From: Halobacillus shinanisalinarum
Lineage (GTDB): Bacteria > Bacillota > Bacilli > Bacillales > Halobacillaceae
DNA: 64,000 nucleotides
NCBI RefSeq assembly: GCF_022919835.1
Contig: NZ_CP095074.1
Location: forward strand, 2,108,001-2,172,000
Reading direction: 5' to 3'
Made by a program: the position numbers and the translations under genes. Under the pieces are notes generated by a model, which was not told where the DNA came from, made no database searches, and saw only the letters and a program-made list of their open reading frames with translations. This document shows, one piece after another, positions 9,461 to 64,000 of the stretch (position 1 is the first letter of the stretch; every line of letters begins with the position of its first letter).

Positions 9461-9472
9461 CACACTCTTTAA

Positions 9473-9622
9473 GTGTGTGTTCAAAAAGTTGCCGAATGAG
9501 AACAAGAAGTTCGAGGCGCCAAGTTTTGAGGACCACAGCGTATGCCTTTCATATGTGAGGACTGGAAAAAACCGAGCAACAAAGAAATTCGCCGTTTATC
9601 ATTTGATTACTTTTTGAACATC
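9473..9622. mobile_element. MITE-like repeat, copy 1 (short form)
   Basis: This 150-bp element has imperfect terminal inverted repeats of about 26 bp (left GTGTTCAAAAAGTTGCCGAA, right complement ATGTTCAAAAAGTAATCAAA). It is flanked by an exact 8-bp direct repeat, CTCTTTAA, at 9465-9472 and 9623-9630, which looks like a target-site duplication. It has no coding capacity. Related copies lie at 15148-15562 and 63560-63732 and share the right-end block ACCGAGCAACAAAGAAATTC with copy 3. Confidence 0.75.
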
Positions 9623-9660
9623 CTCTTTAAAGACACCCGGTCCAATCCACAAGACTCTGT

Positions 9661-11519: not shown

Positions 11520-13370
11520 CTAGCTGGTTGCTTTTTCAGAGATTTCGTTTGCGAACTGACTGTGATAAAGCTCGGCATAGAAACCGTCTTTCACTAACAG
11601 TTCATCATGCGTGCCTTGCTCGATCACGCTGCCTTTATCCATAACGAGAATTGTATCTGCGTCCTTAATCGTGGAAAGTCTGTGAGCAATGATGAAGCTT
11701 GTTCTTCCTTCCATTAATTCACTCATGGCCTGTTGAATATGGCTTTCTGTTCTTGTATCCACACTGCTGGTTGCTTCATCTAACACAAGGATTGCAGGAT
11801 CCGTAATGATCGCACGAGCAATAGTGATAAGCTGCTTTTGGCCTTGTGATATATTGGACGCTTCTTCATTCAGAACCGTATCGTAACCTTCAGGAAGTGT
11901 TCGAATAAAATAATCAGCATGCGCGGCTTCAGCTGCTTGTATAACCTCGCCTTCAGTGGCATTTTCACGACCGTAGGCTATATTATCTCGTATCGTCCCA
12001 TTGAAGAGCCACGTATCCTGGAGCACCATGCCGAATAAGCTACGCAATTCTCCACGTTTTACATCACGAATGTTAACACCATCAATTGTGATTTTTCCGT
12101 TGTCTATCTCATAGAAACGCATCAATAGATTGATCAGTGTTGTCTTCCCAGCTCCAGTCGGTCCTACAATCGCTACTTTTTGACCTTGCTCTACATTTAC
12201 TGTCATATCGCTAATCAAAGTGACATCTTTTTGATAGCCAAAATCGACACCCTGAAAACTCACGGATCCCTTTGCAGATTGAATCGTCTTCGCACTCCCA
12301 GATACCCATTCTTCCTCTTCATCAAGAACTTCAAAGACGCGTTCAGCTGATGCAACCGTAGATTGAATGACATTTGCTATGCTTGATACTTGGGTAATCG
12401 GTTGAGAAAATTGTCTGATATATTGGATAAATGCTTGGATACCACCGACTCCGATCGTTCCTCTCGTGACAAGCAGCGCACCAATTACACAAATTAGTAC
12501 ATAAACAATATTATTAACAAATTTCAGGATTGGCTTAATCATTCCGGAAATAAATTGTGCTTTCCAGCCTGATTGATAGAGATTCTCATTTATTTTTTTA
12601 AATCGGTCAATAGACTGGTCCTCACGCCCGAACGCCTTGATAACCTGATGGCCTGAATACATTTCCTCTACGTGGCCATTCAATTGCCCGAGAGCTTTTC
12701 GCTGGCCTATGAAATAGTTCTGTGAGCGAGCAGCCACTTTCTTCGTTATGATAAAGCTTAACGGTAAGGTTATAAAAACAATCACAGTCATTAACGGGCT
12801 AATGGTAAGCATCATCACCACAACGCCAACCAGTGTCACGATGGCTGTAATGAATTGTGTAAGACTTTTCTGTAGTGTACTACTGATATTCTCTAGATCG
12901 TTAACGGCACGACTTAATAAGTCACCATGTGTACGTGAATCAAAATATTGGAGCGGGAGACGAGAAAGTTTTTCGTTCACTTCTTTACGGATGGTATAGA
13001 CGGTTTTTTGCGCAACCCCCGCCATAATATATTGTTGAATGTAACTGAATGCGACACTCAAAAGATAAAGTACACCTAAAATTATTAAGGCTGCCTGGAT
13101 AAAGTCAAAGTCAACCCTAGCATTTGGAATGGTATTCATTTTCATCACCATGGATTGAAATAACCCTGTTGTAATCATTCCAATGATTTTTGGACTCAGA
13201 ATGGCGAAGAATGTGCTGAGGATAGCCGTTAAAAGTACCTTTAGCAATGAAACTCTATGAGGTTTTAGATAGCCGATCAGTCTTTTTAGTGTTCCTTTAA
13301 AATCCCTGACCTTTTGCTCTGGTTTTCCTTTACGACGGTTTCTTTGCTGTTTTTGACGTTTCTCGCTCAT
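11520..13370 (-). CDS. Heterodimeric ABC multidrug exporter, catalytic-site half (YfiC-like)
   Basis: This 616-aa half-transporter has a basic N-terminus, six membrane helices (about 40-330) and an ATPase domain with Walker A GPTGAGKT, signature NISQGQ, Walker B ILVLDEATSSVD with the catalytic Glu, and the H-loop HRLS. The partner subunit upstream lacks the catalytic Glu, which is typical of heterodimeric type IV exporters (LmrCD, BmrCD, YfiBC). The 4-bp overlap with that gene (ATGA) implies translational coupling. The likely role is efflux of drugs, lipids or peptides; the substrate is not predictable. Confidence 0.9.
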   Translation of the reverse strand: MSEKRQKQQRNRRKGKPEQKVRDFKGTLKRLIGYLKPHRVSLLKVLLTAILSTFFAILSPKIIGMITTGLFQSMVMKMNTIPNARVDFDFIQAALIILGVLYLLSVAFSYIQQYIMAGVAQKTVYTIRKEVNEKLSRLPLQYFDSRTHGDLLSRAVNDLENISSTLQKSLTQFITAIVTLVGVVVMMLTISPLMTVIVFITLPLSFIITKKVAARSQNYFIGQRKALGQLNGHVEEMYSGHQVIKAFGREDQSIDRFKKINENLYQSGWKAQFISGMIKPILKFVNNIVYVLICVIGALLVTRGTIGVGGIQAFIQYIRQFSQPITQVSSIANVIQSTVASAERVFEVLDEEEEWVSGSAKTIQSAKGSVSFQGVDFGYQKDVTLISDMTVNVEQGQKVAIVGPTGAGKTTLINLLMRFYEIDNGKITIDGVNIRDVKRGELRSLFGMVLQDTWLFNGTIRDNIAYGRENATEGEVIQAAEAAHADYFIRTLPEGYDTVLNEEASNISQGQKQLITIARAIITDPAILVLDEATSSVDTRTESHIQQAMSELMEGRTSFIIAHRLSTIKDADTILVMDKGSVIEQGTHDELLVKDGFYAELYHSQFANEISEKATS

Positions 13371-15094
13371 GCCGTTTCCTCCTCTGAAAGCTGTGATGAT
13401 ACAATTTCTTGGTAAATCTCACAGCTTTCCATTAGCTCTTGGTGTGTTCCAACACCTGCCATTTCCCCATGATCTAAAACGATAATCTGGTCCGCATCCA
13501 TAACCGTACTGATCCTTTGGGCAACGATGAACACAGTGGAATCAGATGTCTCCTCTTGAAGGGACGCACGCAGCTTGGCATCGGTTTTAAAGTCAAGGGC
13601 TGAGAAACTATCATCAAAAATATAAATACTAGCTTTCCTTATTAGGGCACGGGCAATGGAAAGGCGCTGTTTCTGTCCACCCGAGACGTTTGCGCCTTTT
13701 TGAGCGATAACAGAGTCGAAGCCATTCTTCGTCTCTAAAATAAAGTCTGATACTTGAGCAACATCCGCTGCCTTCCTTACCTCTTTATCTGTCGCCATTT
13801 TCTTTCCATAGCGAATATTATCTGCAATTGTCCCAGAAAATAGAACCGATTTTTGAGGAGCAAAACTGATGTTATTTCTCAAATTACTCTGTGACATGTC
13901 ACGTGTATCGATACCATCTATCGTAATGGTGCCATGATCAACATCATAGAATCTTGGGAGGAGATTAATAAGTGTCGACTTTCCTGCCCCAGTGCCACCT
14001 ACAATAGCTGTCACCTCCCCGGGTTTGGTAGAAAATGAAATGTTTGAAAGCACAGGTTCCTCCGCTCCCGGATAGCTGAACGTTACATGATCAAACTCCA
14101 CAAACCCCTCTAGTCTGCGTCCGTGCTTATCTTCAACTGGATCCTTAGCTTCAGAAACTGTATCGAGCACCTCATTAATCCTGCTAGCTGAGACCGAGGC
14201 GCGGGGAATCATGATGAGCATCATCGATGACATAATTAAGGAAAACATAATTTGCATGGCATATTGAATGAAGGCCATTAATTCACCGACTTGAAGATTT
14301 CCATTGCTAATCCGAATACTCCCAAACCATATAATGGCAATGATTGAAAAGTTAAGGACAAACATCATAATCGGTGTCAACGTTGCCATAATCTTGTTAA
14401 CCTTAATTGCCGTGTTGGCAAAATCCAAGTTTGCTTCATTAAACCGATTCCGTTCATGAGTAGTACGGTTAAAAGACCGAATAACCCGAATGCCGTTCAG
14501 CCCTTCCCGAAGAACGAGATTTAGCCGATCCAACTTCTTCTGCAACGCTTTAAAAAGCGGGAGTCCTTTTTTGGCCACAACGATGATTGCAGCAACGATG
14601 ATAGGAACAACTGCGATAATAATCAATGACATGGCTGCGTCTGTAGCTACGGCTATGAAGATTCCCCCGATAAACATCATTGGGGCCATAATCAATACCT
14701 TCAGCATCATTGTCAGCACCTGCTGAACCTGCATAATGTCATTCGTCGTTCTGGTAATAAGAGAGGAGGCACCGACTTTATCAAACCCTTGCAGTGAAAA
14801 ATTTTCAATATGTGTGAACATTTTTTCACGAATAATTTTTCCAAAGCCCATGGACACTTTCGAGGAATAGAAGCCTGCTAGGATCGAAAACACCACACCG
14901 CCTGCAGCTACTAACAACATGAAGCCACCTATTTTTACAATATAGGAAATATCACCATTCACGATTCCTTTATCCACAACATTCGCCATTAGGGCAGGAA
15001 GAAACAGCTGAGATAGGGATTGCAAAAGTGTTAGCACTAAAATAACTATGATAGGAATGCGATAGGGCTTTAAAAATTTGAACAATTTCATCAT
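13367..15094 (-). CDS. Heterodimeric ABC multidrug exporter, degenerate-site half (YfiB-like)
   Basis: This 575-aa half-transporter has six membrane helices (about 12-310) and an ATPase domain with Walker A GGTGAGKS and signature VSGGQKQR. The Walker B reads IYIFDDSFSALD, with Asp where the catalytic Glu should be, and the H-loop is QRIS rather than HR. Both changes mark the non-catalytic ATP site of asymmetric exporters. It is the first gene of the two-gene operon, with a good GGAGGTGAT site. The six-peptide array lies upstream on the same strand, separated by a terminator and a MITE copy, so a functional link is possible but unproven. Confidence 0.9.
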   Translation of the reverse strand: MMKLFKFLKPYRIPIIVILVLTLLQSLSQLFLPALMANVVDKGIVNGDISYIVKIGGFMLLVAAGGVVFSILAGFYSSKVSMGFGKIIREKMFTHIENFSLQGFDKVGASSLITRTTNDIMQVQQVLTMMLKVLIMAPMMFIGGIFIAVATDAAMSLIIIAVVPIIVAAIIVVAKKGLPLFKALQKKLDRLNLVLREGLNGIRVIRSFNRTTHERNRFNEANLDFANTAIKVNKIMATLTPIMMFVLNFSIIAIIWFGSIRISNGNLQVGELMAFIQYAMQIMFSLIMSSMMLIMIPRASVSASRINEVLDTVSEAKDPVEDKHGRRLEGFVEFDHVTFSYPGAEEPVLSNISFSTKPGEVTAIVGGTGAGKSTLINLLPRFYDVDHGTITIDGIDTRDMSQSNLRNNISFAPQKSVLFSGTIADNIRYGKKMATDKEVRKAADVAQVSDFILETKNGFDSVIAQKGANVSGGQKQRLSIARALIRKASIYIFDDSFSALDFKTDAKLRASLQEETSDSTVFIVAQRISTVMDADQIIVLDHGEMAGVGTHQELMESCEIYQEIVSSQLSEEETA

Positions 15095-15147
15095 GTTTCA
15101 TCACCTCCACTCATTTCGAATTGATCCAAGTTTAACTTATCATTAAA

Positions 15148-15562
15148 GTGAGTGTTCAAAAAGTAGCCAAATGAGAAGGTCGGCAAAGTCGCCATGATAC
15201 GCGAGCAATGTCGACACTAGCACGTCCTGTTTGGTGGCGGCGTAGCTCCTGAGCATCAAGGAAACCTTCTCCGAAACGACCTCGCACAAAGGAAAAGTAT
15301 CCTTCTTTTCCAAGGAATGAACTTGCACACGACGTGCTAACTTCTACGTTGTGCACAGGGACGTGCACGGTTTTAATAGAAGTTCCACTGTTGCTTATTG
15401 ATAAGTGAGTAGCGAGGCATCTTCAGAGAATATCCTTCTTCGCTGCCTTGCACCGAGGAATTTACTTCTTTGAATAGGCTTGTACACACAGGTGCTCACG
15501 CTCTTCAAAAGCAAGTCAACGAAGAGACTCGCCTCTTATCATTTGGTGACTTTTTGAACATC
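15148..15562. mobile_element. MITE-like repeat, copy 2 (long form)
   Basis: This 415-bp element carries the same terminal inverted repeats (left GTGTTCAAAAAGTAGCCAAA, right complement ATGTTCAAAAAGTCACCAAA) but a longer interior than the other copies. No convincing coding frame lies inside; two short frames there are not supported by ribosome binding sites. It lies between the ABC exporter genes and the peptide array. The flanks (TCATTAAA and CCCTCAAA) are not a clean duplication. Confidence 0.72.
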
Positions 15563-15634
15563 CCCTCAAAGTTTAAATTATAATGTGAATAATATAAATT
15601 ATAAATCCTGTTTTGTTTTGGCTTCATCTATACG

Positions 15635-15664
15635 AAAAAAACCGGGGTGAATGATTCACCCCGG
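15635..15664 (-). terminator. Terminator of the six-peptide array
   Basis: CCGGGGTGAA and TTCACCCCGG form a perfect 10-bp stem with a TCAT-type loop, followed on the minus strand by TTTTTTT. It lies about 50 bp after the last peptide ORF and is the only clear terminator in the array, so the six ORFs probably share transcripts. Confidence 0.9.
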
Positions 15665-15714
15665 AGTGTTAACAAAGTAACGTCTACACTGCCTTACTAT
15701 TTCATAGGCAAGTA

Positions 15715-15807
15715 TTAAAGTAAGCTATCAAGGTCCAAGTCAACATTGCCAGAGTCGTTGACACTGCCGTTACCAATGTCGCTCAAAATTTGTGTTACGT
15801 CTAACAT
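15715..15807 (-). CDS. Acidic 30-aa peptide, array copy 6 (distal)
   Basis: This 30-aa peptide begins MLDVTQILSDIGNGSVNDSG and ends NVDLDLDSLL. It is the last of six tandem ORFs. An ATG sits 4 nt after GGAGGTGA. It has no Lys, Arg, His, Cys or aromatic residue and seven Asp. It is the most divergent at the C-terminus (LDLDSLL instead of xDISDLL). No signal peptide or known family is recognised. Its neighbours encode the same peptide with different synonymous codons, which argues that it is translated. Confidence 0.8.
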   Translation of the reverse strand: MLDVTQILSDIGNGSVNDSGNVDLDLDSLL

Positions 15808-15853
15808 AATGTCACCTCCAAGGCTTTTATTTCTTATTCATTACAACTAAGTC

Positions 15854-15946
15854 TTATAGCAAATCGCTGATGTCTGCATCTACATTGCCAGAGTCGTTGA
15901 CACTGCCGTTTAGAATGTCGCTCAAAATTTGTGTTGAGTCTAACAT
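15854..15946 (-). CDS. Acidic 30-aa peptide, array copy 5
   Basis: The peptide begins MLDSTQILSDILNGSVNDSG and ends NVDADISDLL. Together with copy 2 it defines the Ser4/Leu12 subtype, in contrast to the Val4/Gly12 subtype of copies 3, 4 and 6. ATG follows GGAGGTGACATC. Residues 3-13 could form an amphipathic helix (Ile, Leu, Ile, Leu on one face), and the C-terminal half is rich in Asn, Ser, Gly and Asp. Confidence 0.82.
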   Translation of the reverse strand: MLDSTQILSDILNGSVNDSGNVDADISDLL

Positions 15947-15992
15947 GATGTCACCTCCAAGGCTTTTATTTCTTATTCATTACAACTAAGTC

Positions 15993-16085
15993 TTATAGCA
16001 AGTCGCTGATGTCTAAATCAACATTACCAGAGTCGTTGACACTACCGTTACCAATGTCGCTCAAAATTTGTGTTACGTCTAACAT
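15993..16085 (-). CDS. Acidic 30-aa peptide, array copy 4
   Basis: The peptide begins MLDVTQILSDIGNGSVNDSG and ends NVDLDISDLL, intermediate between copies 6 and 3. ATG follows GGAGGTGACATC. Several codons differ synonymously from copy 3 (for example GGT for GGC and GTT for GTA in the core), while the core peptide is unchanged. Confidence 0.82.
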   Translation of the reverse strand: MLDVTQILSDIGNGSVNDSGNVDLDISDLL

Positions 16086-16132
16086 GATGTCACCTCCCAT
16101 AGTTTTTATTTCTTCATCGTTACAAGTAAGCC

Positions 16133-16225
16133 TTATAGCAAGTCGCTGATGTCTGCATCTACATTGCCAGAGTCGTTGACACTACCGTTACCAATGTCGC
16201 TCAAAATTTGTGTTACGTCTAACAT
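16133..16225 (-). CDS. Acidic 30-aa peptide, array copy 3
   Basis: The peptide begins MLDVTQILSDIGNGSVNDSG and ends NVDADISDLL. The SD is GGAGGTGA, 4 nt from ATG. The leaders of copies 3 and 4 are nearly identical in sequence, suggesting the most recent duplication was between these two. Confidence 0.82.
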   Translation of the reverse strand: MLDVTQILSDIGNGSVNDSGNVDADISDLL

Positions 16226-16272
16226 GATGTCACCTCCCATAGTTTTTATTTCTTCATCGTTACAAGTAAGCC

Positions 16273-16365
16273 TTATAGTAAATCGCTGATATCTGCATCT
16301 ACATTGCCAGAGTCATTGACACTGCCGTTTAGAATATCGCTTAGAATTTGTGTTGAATCAAACAT
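16273..16365 (-). CDS. Acidic 30-aa peptide, array copy 2
   Basis: The peptide begins MFDSTQILSDILNGSVNDSG and ends NVDADISDLL; Phe2 is the only aromatic residue in the whole family. It is preceded by a longer AT-rich spacer (16366-16486), which could carry a second promoter, though I see no convincing hexamers there. SD and spacing are as in the other copies. Confidence 0.82.
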   Translation of the reverse strand: MFDSTQILSDILNGSVNDSGNVDADISDLL

Positions 16366-16486
16366 GATGTCACCTCCAATGGCATAAGATTTTTGTTCTC
16401 AAAAGGAGCAATAGAATACTCGCCTTAAGGTAGAGTTAAATTTAAATAATTTAAAACATATTCTTTTTCATAGTTTCAGCTAAGTG

Positions 16487-16579
16487 TTATAGCAAGTCGC
16501 TGATATCCACACCAATATTTCCGGAATCGTTGACACTGCCGTTTAGAATGTCGCTTAAAATTTGCGTAATATCTTGCAC
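16487..16579 (-). CDS. Acidic 30-aa peptide, array copy 1 (promoter-proximal)
   Basis: This copy starts with GTG behind GGGAGGTGAGACT and encodes a peptide beginning MQDITQILSDILNGSVNDSG and ending NIGVDISDLL. It differs from copy 5 by many synonymous changes (ACG/ACA, TTA/TTG, GAT/GAC, TCC/TCT, GGA/GGC) yet keeps the core peptide, the clearest sign in the array of purifying selection on protein. It lies about 40 bp downstream of a sigma-D-like promoter. Confidence 0.8.
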   Translation of the reverse strand: MQDITQILSDILNGSVNDSGNIGVDISDLL

Positions 16580-16620
16580 AGTCTCACCTCCCTTATCTTT
16601 CTGCATATAGCTATCGAATC

Positions 16621-16647
16621 AAATAGGCAATTGGATCACTTTTTTTA
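16621..16647 (-). promoter_or_regulatory. Sigma-D-like promoter in front of the peptide array
   Basis: On the minus strand TAAA (16647-16644) is separated by exactly 15 nt from GCCTATTT (16628-16621). The B. subtilis sigma-D consensus is TAAA-N15-GCCGATAT, so 10 of 12 positions match. Initiation would give a leader of about 35 nt before the first GTG. A perfect 7-bp inverted repeat (TTTATAG/CTATAAA) lies just upstream. No equally good sigma-A promoter was found. Confidence 0.4.
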
Positions 16648-16834: not shown

Positions 16835-17226
16835 TTATCCTGAAGACTCGGCTTCAAGACACTTGTGTCCGTTTCTGAAAGCCCCTCTACCTTTGATGAG
16901 ACTAAGTAAATTTTCCCTATTGTTTGGATTCTGTAGAGTTAGGCAAAAGTTTTCGATCATTTCGTATTCATGAATTTCATATTTGATGGTAGTTGTTTGT
17001 ATTTCATTGGATGATCAACAATATCATAGGCCAATTTTAAATCATCCTTCTGCCAATCAGGTAAACCGTCCATTACATCCATAGGTTCTTCCTCTTCTGC
17101 TGTATGTAAATCTAGTTCAGGCAAGGACACAATTCGTCCAGTATTTACATTTAAAAAGGCAAGATATTCCTTCATTTGCCTGTCCATTCCTTCTACAATA
17201 CCTTTAATAATTACGGAAGTTGACAT
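16835..17226 (-). pseudogene. UPF0158-family protein, frameshifted
   Basis: The first frame encodes 89 aa with the UPF0158 pattern (IIKGIVEGMDRQMKEYLAFLN at the start, then acidic EEEEPMDVMDGLPDWQKDDL and LAYDIVD), stopping at 16957. The expected continuation is present in the next frame: HEYEMIENFCLTLQNP then NRENLLSLIKGRGAFR, to a stop at 16835. The breakpoint is near 16968 (KFMN read in place of the expected KFxIHEY), consistent with a small deletion. After GRGAFR the usual family C-terminus (RFKD...) is replaced by unrelated residues, so the gene is doubly damaged. Function of UPF0158 is unknown. Confidence 0.7.
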
Positions 17227-63559: not shown

Positions 63560-63732
63560 GTGTGTGTTCAGTTGCGAATGAGAACGTCGACAAAGATCGT
63601 CACGTCCTATGCGTAGCAAGAAGCTCGGAGGCGCGAAAGTTTTAGGACCACAGCATATGCCTTTCCTACGTGAGGACTGAACCGAGCAACAAAGAAATTC
63701 GCCGTTGATCATTTGGTGACTTTTTGAACATC
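63560..63732. mobile_element. MITE-like repeat, copy 3
   Basis: This 173-bp element resembles copy 1 inside (AGGACCACAGC, GAGGACTG, ACCGAGCAACAAAGAAATTC). The left terminal repeat has lost AAAAA (TGTTCAGTTGCGAATGAGAA), while the right one is intact. Flanks TTTTATAA and CTCTATAA are a weak duplication. Beyond it (63733-64000) I see no gene. Confidence 0.72.
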
Positions 63733-64000
63733 CTCTATAAATAATAGTCGGAGTCTATGTCTTCAAAGCACTTATAAATAAAACAGTGAAACGGATCTAA
63801 AAGTAAAAGCGGAGCGGAGCGGACGAACTGAATAACATAGTGCTTTACAGTCAATCCTTCAAGTAACCATTTAAATCAGTATAAACTGCCATCCTATGCC
63901 CAAAGTGTTACTAAAGTTTGAATAATTTGTGTCAAGATTTCATAAAAAAAGTGATCTTTATATGACAATTCATTTAAGACTATCTAGGCTTCAAGTTTAT

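Follow-up and report, generated by a model that had tools for sequence, protein, structure and literature searches.

Tandem genes for strongly acidic peptides of about 30 residues, with an ABC exporter pair and an ECF-type promoter element, in Halobacillus shinanisalinarum and other Bacillales

The window analyzed here is a stretch of 64,000 nt of DNA from Halobacillus shinanisalinarum. On its minus strand, between positions 16579 and 15715, we observed six consecutive open reading frames (ORFs) of exactly 30 codons each: gene 1 (16487..16579), gene 2 (16273..16365), gene 3 (16133..16225), gene 4 (15993..16085), gene 5 (15854..15946) and gene 6 (15715..15807). Gene 1 starts with GTG and the other five with ATG, and in all six copies a ribosome site, GGAGGTGA, is located 4 nt ahead of the start. 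The six peptides have the core TQILSDI-x-NGSVNDSGN in common, contain no Lys, Arg, His or Cys and together have a single Phe, which is found in ORF 2. Coordinates and sequences bear out what a first-pass annotation of this DNA had said about the tandem 30-codon ORFs with their own ribosome sites and shared core, and about the absence of basic residues and Cys and the one Phe; the number of Asp residues per peptide, given there as five to seven, has to be corrected to 5–6. Gene 6 encodes a variant C-terminus, DLDLDSLL, which recurs in the last copy of the array of Halobacillus hunanensis (L046), the closest named match by peptide. The host genome consists of one contig of 4.89 Mb, in which the six copies are the only matches at an E-value of 10 or better.

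A promoter-like element of the ECF sigma type, TGATCC-N16-CGATAGC, was found at 16610..16638 (minus strand); it recurs before arrays elsewhere and before sigma, surface-protein and sortase genes of the host. Behind the last copy we read one intrinsic terminator, CCGGGGTGAATCATTCACCCCGG-TTTTTTT (about 15634..15664, minus strand), so that the single strong terminator described earlier is present, and it lies between the array and two exporter genes. These follow directly downstream on the same strand: subunit 1 (13367..15094, 575 aa) and subunit 2 (11520..13370, 616 aa), which overlap by 4 nt. A Bacillaceae-1 RNA (RF01690) is located between the array terminator and the exporter genes (15324-15392, minus strand; element about 15131-15640), and because the array–exporter gap measures 620 nt here compared with 143 nt in H. 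hunanensis, this RNA looks like a later insertion. Short stretches similar to the Bacillaceae-1 element also occur at 9468-9626 and 63687-63736. On the minus strand at 16957-17226 there is, in addition, an ORF of 89 aa that looks shortened, as it matches only the first part of a 158-aa protein of H. hunanensis (L046:6575-7051). For 19 arrays the downstream gap was available, and a script detected a hairpin behind 11 of them; in the other eight it found none, two of which show one by eye. As six arrays (L048, L049, L050, L051, L042 and L057) are without a terminator by script, a differential dosage driven by the terminator is not general.

Next, we analyzed whether the repeated ORFs behave as coding sequences. 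Among the six window copies pN/pS is 0.19 in the coding frame and 1.3–2.1 in four other frames, and it is 0.43 in the codon-aligned antisense frame, in which the wobble positions of the coding frame are mirrored. The same holds for nine groupings of copies (eight of them independent, one being nested in another), in which the coding frame shows values of 0.13–0.37 with mainly synonymous changes, the codon-aligned antisense frame 0.21–0.55, again mirroring the wobble positions, and the remaining frames 0.68 to 4.0 (one undefined); copy pairs are not independent, hence no p-value is attached to these values. Judged by these substitutions, the array peptides are real and under purifying selection, as the first-pass annotation had argued from the synonymous differences, and its proposed dN/dS check thereby comes out in favor of a peptide. 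Related arrays in other genera keep the length, start, ribosome site and core. DNA searches yielded about 110 copies in 21 loci (95 after removing one false row, plus 15), a total in which copies at contig ends may count twice. For further counts we used 100 copies, leaving out, all from Geomicrobium, three first copies that lack a start codon in the expected position and seven copies that were mis-registered; 76 of the 100 are distinct, and a strong ribosome site was observed in 96. The ORF length claimed to be constant is indeed exactly 30 codons throughout the window, but in the family it is nearly, not strictly, so: 52 peptides have 30 residues, 45 have 29, two have 28 and one has 48.

Single copies that appear to have decayed were seen in two genomes: one in G337 with an internal TGA (E 4.5e-5) and a weak one in G394 (E 0.0015). 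Both (L043, L044) have a gamma-glutamyltransferase gene close by, and in neither neighborhood was an exporter pair recognised. A peptide-gene fragment in Lentibacillus jeotgali is another case of decay. Genome G233 (L042) has one more 30-codon copy just upstream of the first counted one; it is divergent, contains several basic residues and has a promoter site of its own.

The peptides of the window have no match in Pfam, NCBIfam, PHROGs or Rfam, which agrees with the earlier statement that no family is recognised; in particular, the Rfam search gave no RNA family that would explain the repeats of the peptide genes. The best explanation of the array is a peptide family not described before, whose members are leaderless, strongly acidic and about 30 residues long. 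In the 100 counted copies the net charge is negative throughout, −4 to −7 and −12 in the 48-mer; Cys, Trp and Pro are absent from all of them, five have one Lys each, and 30 contain an aromatic residue. From 74 distinct cores we observed that T5, Q6 and L8 are almost invariant and that the mean entropy rises from 0.46 bits at residues 5–12 to 0.86 at 13–21 and 1.58 at 22–28. Within residues 13–28 the constraint has a period of two, with 0.64 bits at the odd positions (N, S, N, S, N, D, D, S) versus 1.70 at the even ones. Only 4 of 12870 permuted arrangements were as low (2 after removal of the trend), for a stretch that was picked after the pattern had been seen, and three subfamilies show it again (13, 430 and 92 of 12870 permutations). 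An extended strand that keeps one polar face conserved would produce such a constraint, and a strand of this kind is what the pattern suggests for residues 13–28. An AlphaFold model shows two helices at low confidence (pLDDT 71, pTM 0.28) and counts against an extended C-terminal half. The peptide unit can be extended, since the 48-residue copy, a natural gene of L. jeotgali (L049:8153-8299), repeats the linker and the C-terminal segment.

Arrays of 2 to 12 copies are scattered through the Bacillales. We found them in 2 of 44 genomes of the host's family, in 6 of 397 genomes of the order (plus the single copies in G337 and G394), in 3 of 398 genomes of the class (plus one chance match) and in 7 of 159 genomes of the family of Lentibacillus sediminis. 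A scan of genome contigs gave 14 loci in Halobacillus, Peribacillus, Lentibacillus, Shouchella, Scopulibacillus, Geomicrobium, Alkalicoccobacillus and strain JMAK1, and no relative of the peptide was found in viral contigs, plasmids or phage records. In one search of 5.8 billion predicted proteins just 4 relatives came up, compared with about 110 copies by DNA searches, and gene callers seem to miss this family. One of the roles considered at first, an ion-binding micro-protein for a salty habitat, is not specific enough, because arrays are also present in Peribacillus cavernae and Scopulibacillus darangshiensis, which are not known to be halophiles.

We then turned to the exporter genes. Both subunits in the window are half-transporters with an ABC_membrane and an ABC_tran domain encoded by adjacent genes, as is expected of a heterodimeric ABC exporter, and the Pfam scan revealed no C39 peptidase domain in either of them. 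The exporter may resemble YfiB/YfiC of Bacillus subtilis. In each of the 18 array genomes that were read (the window, 13 others and the four held-out genomes G816, G849, G922 and G923) at least one array lies directly upstream of an ABC pair, the four held-out arrays included, and the outer neighbors of this array–exporter unit vary among genera. In a tree of the first subunit all 12 array-linked proteins fell into one clade (100/100). In an enlarged tree the clade comprised 16 of 16 array-linked proteins (100/100) and 0 of 33 unlinked relatives, these 33 being the nearest unlinked relatives with known loci plus four distant ones rather than all; L053 and L059 were omitted from the 16 as split, and G816 enters by one piece. 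The first subunit is indeed split over two frames in three loci (L053, L059 and G816), and the contig ends within the array in L055 and L056.

The exporter family as a whole is broad, with 88 of 394 genomes of the order matching at E 1e-160 or better. Among the matches listed for the 44 family genomes, relatives of the first subunit above 40% identity were those of the two array genomes (90–100%) and of G034 (57%), the latter falling outside the array-linked clade. When 30 exporter loci were inspected, an array within 1.5 kb upstream was present only in the two array genomes among them. A Scopulibacillus array of three copies (L052) has no adjacent exporter, its downstream neighbor being a thermolysin-type peptidase; elsewhere in this genome there are a two-copy array with a pair (L125) and a further exporter pair (L126) without an array in the 2.6 kb upstream. 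The best PDB matches of the exporter include the heterodimeric 8wcw and TM287/288 (3qf4), with YheI (8t1p) lower. The membrane domain shows no overall charge shift that would fit an acidic cargo, and since most relatives of solved structure go under the name of multidrug or lipid exporters, the array exporter might transport another substrate. Taken from gene linkage and tree, the exporter appears to be dedicated to the array peptide, and export of the peptide is likely.

The promoter element extends this picture beyond the locus. Before arrays its consensus is TGATCCA-N15-CGWTAGC. Variants were observed in Peribacillus (CGTTATC, three sites, one ahead of each of three copies), in L. sediminis and G922 (CGTAAGC, one nt longer in L. 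sediminis) and in G816 (CAATAGC); in Shouchella the second and third copies are preceded by sites and the first copy has no match in front. The held-out arrays have the exact element in two cases and deviate by 1 base in one and by 2 bases in one. In the host genome a looser pattern gave 9 matches against 1 for a reversed control. Six of the host matches have 16 nt between TGATCC and CGATAGC, and they precede an ECF sigma/anti-sigma operon, three surface-protein genes, a class F sortase-FN3 gene and the array (L143:3591-6465, L140:3470-4597, L141:4704-7323 and L142:5404-6753 for the loci with ECF sigma/anti-sigma, sortase-FN3 and surface proteins). The sigma gene is followed by that of a zf-HC2/RskA-type anti-sigma factor, the three surface proteins (445–449 aa) end in MPKTG-type sorting signals, and a second sortase-FN3 gene follows one of the surface-protein genes. 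Class F is here the best NCBIfam match of the sortase, below the curated cut-off, and the FN3 part, which Pfam does not name, takes its label from a relative recorded as ‘fibronectin type III domain-containing protein’. Relatives of the surface proteins are entered in public records as ‘copper amine oxidase’; the three host proteins gave no such match when scanned, and surface proteins under this label are widespread in Bacillales.

In 16 further genomes (10 with arrays and 6 without) a strict pattern matched 37 times, compared with once for the reversed control. Thirty of the 37 were fetched: 11 lie before arrays, 12 before surface proteins, 5 before the sigma gene, 1 before an FN3 protein and 1 before another secreted protein. 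As the strict pattern was derived from arrays, the array matches are no independent test and it is the non-array matches that carry weight. The other secreted protein (L185, G006) is unrelated and has about 124 aa. Sites are absent from G008 and G009, two Halobacillus genomes without a sigma orthologue at E 1e-50, and G247 has no strict match, its array having the CGTTATC variant. L. jeotgali has the array, the exporter, a sortase, a surface protein and both the sigma and anti-sigma genes within 16 kb, and an FN3-type protein is encoded upstream of the array in eight loci, once fused to a sortase. Viewed at the level of sequence, the array shares its element with the sigma factor's own gene and with putatively co-regulated genes, as members of an ECF regulon do, and we strongly infer that this sigma factor reads the array promoter. 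An orthologue of it (68% identity or more) is present in 19 of the 44 family genomes, and as arrays are so much rarer, the array is an accessory of a wider regulon.

Taken together, the reading that we favor, and hold to be better supported than not, is that of a leaderless acidic peptide which the cell would make in bulk as part of an envelope response and send out through a dedicated ABC pump, and which would be active at the surface, where it may self-assemble. A surface signal would free the ECF sigma factor, which would transcribe the sortase, the surface proteins and the array from a shared promoter type. The tandem copies, each with its own ribosome site, would provide a high peptide dosage, and the high dosage proposed in the first-pass annotation finds its counterpart in arrays of several copies and in a ribosome site for each window copy. 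With the window terminator in place, peptide mRNA should stay abundant, and the exporter genes would be supplied by read-through. The heterodimeric exporter probably recognises the near-invariant N-terminal segment, DxTQILSDIL, and the C-terminal half would be an extended strand with one fixed polar face. Once exported, the peptide would work on the outside of the cell, where stacking with other copies of itself or with the FN3 and surface proteins of the regulon is the most likely mode of action. Of the roles first considered, a secreted or surface function has become the likeliest, given the exporter genes, the ECF-type promoter, the surface-protein regulon and the period-2 constraint. That the peptide assembles is a guess. 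In a more specific and equally tentative form, the peptide would be a secreted building block: 30-residue acidic units from tandem genes, under an uncharacterised ECF sigma factor and with their own ABC heterodimer, might stack via the Asn/Ser/Asp face of the strand and so build a fibre or coat on the surface, which FN3 and sortase-anchored proteins would hold in place. A stackable unit fits the repeated linker and C-terminal segment of the natural 48-residue copy.

The known systems closest in layout are multi-peptide leaderless bacteriocins. Aureocin A70, garvicin KS and the cereucins likewise have neighboring leaderless genes for about 30 residues together with secretion genes, and aureocin A70 is described as four leaderless peptides of 30–31 residues and a charge of +4 to +5 with secretion and immunity genes (PMC6131525). 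The array might accordingly encode an anionic multi-peptide antagonist, with the ABC pair serving export and self-protection. We consider this rather unlikely: the array peptides carry −4 to −7 without Trp, Cys or Pro, their copies are often identical (five in L042) and not complementary components, their promoter is common to sortase and surface-protein genes, and no immunity-like gene was recognised at the loci. The likeness in organisation and the difference in charge were both anticipated by the first-pass annotation, and because its peptides are not cationic the array was not filed with leaderless bacteriocins. Peptides with a double-glycine leader and C39 transporters were a further candidate and were ruled out, as no GG-type leader was found on reading the peptides and no C39 match on the subunits.

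The gene dosage, strong negative charge and ECF-type promoter would also suit an extracellular decoy, released through the ABC pair to bind cationic antimicrobial peptides or metal ions during envelope stress. A mere charge sponge, however, needs neither the invariant Q6 and L8 nor an alternating N/S/N/S/N face, and this function seems unlikely to us. It is quite improbable that the exported peptide is an autocrine signal, to which the RskA-type anti-sigma factor or an FN3 protein would respond, with feedback on the ECF sigma factor; the promoter element is common to array and sigma gene, and both are found in the one 16-kb stretch of L. jeotgali, but the sigma factor is present in many array-free genomes and signals rarely need up to twelve near-identical genes. 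A cytosolic role, in which the peptides stay inside and act on the exporter genes or protein (by leader-peptide attenuation or as a small subunit) while the exporter pumps something else, would fit the array position just upstream of the exporter genes, the window terminator between them and the lack of a signal peptide by eye, yet it is highly improbable given 2–12 copies constrained at the amino-acid level where attenuators normally use one leader ORF, the L052 array without an exporter, and terminators that are not general.

The preferred reading, an exported surface peptide, also has to be set beside other families. In the case of the phenol-soluble modulins of Staphylococcus, too, multi-copy genes encode short amphipathic peptides that have no leader, and an ABC exporter, Pmt, goes with them. 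Pmt has separate ATPase and permease subunits; the array is found in other genera and has another promoter. No match to the modulins was found in Pfam or NCBIfam or among the 4 relatives retrieved, searches in which such short queries are insensitive. TM287/288, YheI/YheH and the mycobacterial Rv1273c/72c consist, like the array exporter, of two half-transporters with membrane and ATPase domains. These known exporters are described as multidrug or lipid exporters, whereas the array-linked clade is a branch of its own that goes with a peptide array. Among functional amyloids, subunits like curli CsgA also have Asn/Ser/Gly-rich extended segments and repeatable units; we saw no sequence match to CsgA, and the array encodes free 30-residue peptides from separate genes, the period-2 constraint being the one observation that bears on cross-beta fibrils.

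Our findings describe a peptide family that is absent from the searched libraries and tied to one exporter clade and one promoter element. They open an envelope regulon composed of an ECF sigma factor, an RskA-type anti-sigma factor, a class F sortase-FN3 protein and surface proteins labeled ‘copper amine oxidase’, for which our literature search found no paper. Should the peptide travel through this exporter, one branch of a transporter family associated more with drugs and lipids would have a ribosomal cargo. The system is known in its layout, tandem leaderless peptides with an exporter, and holds the chance of a new kind of surface-building peptide.
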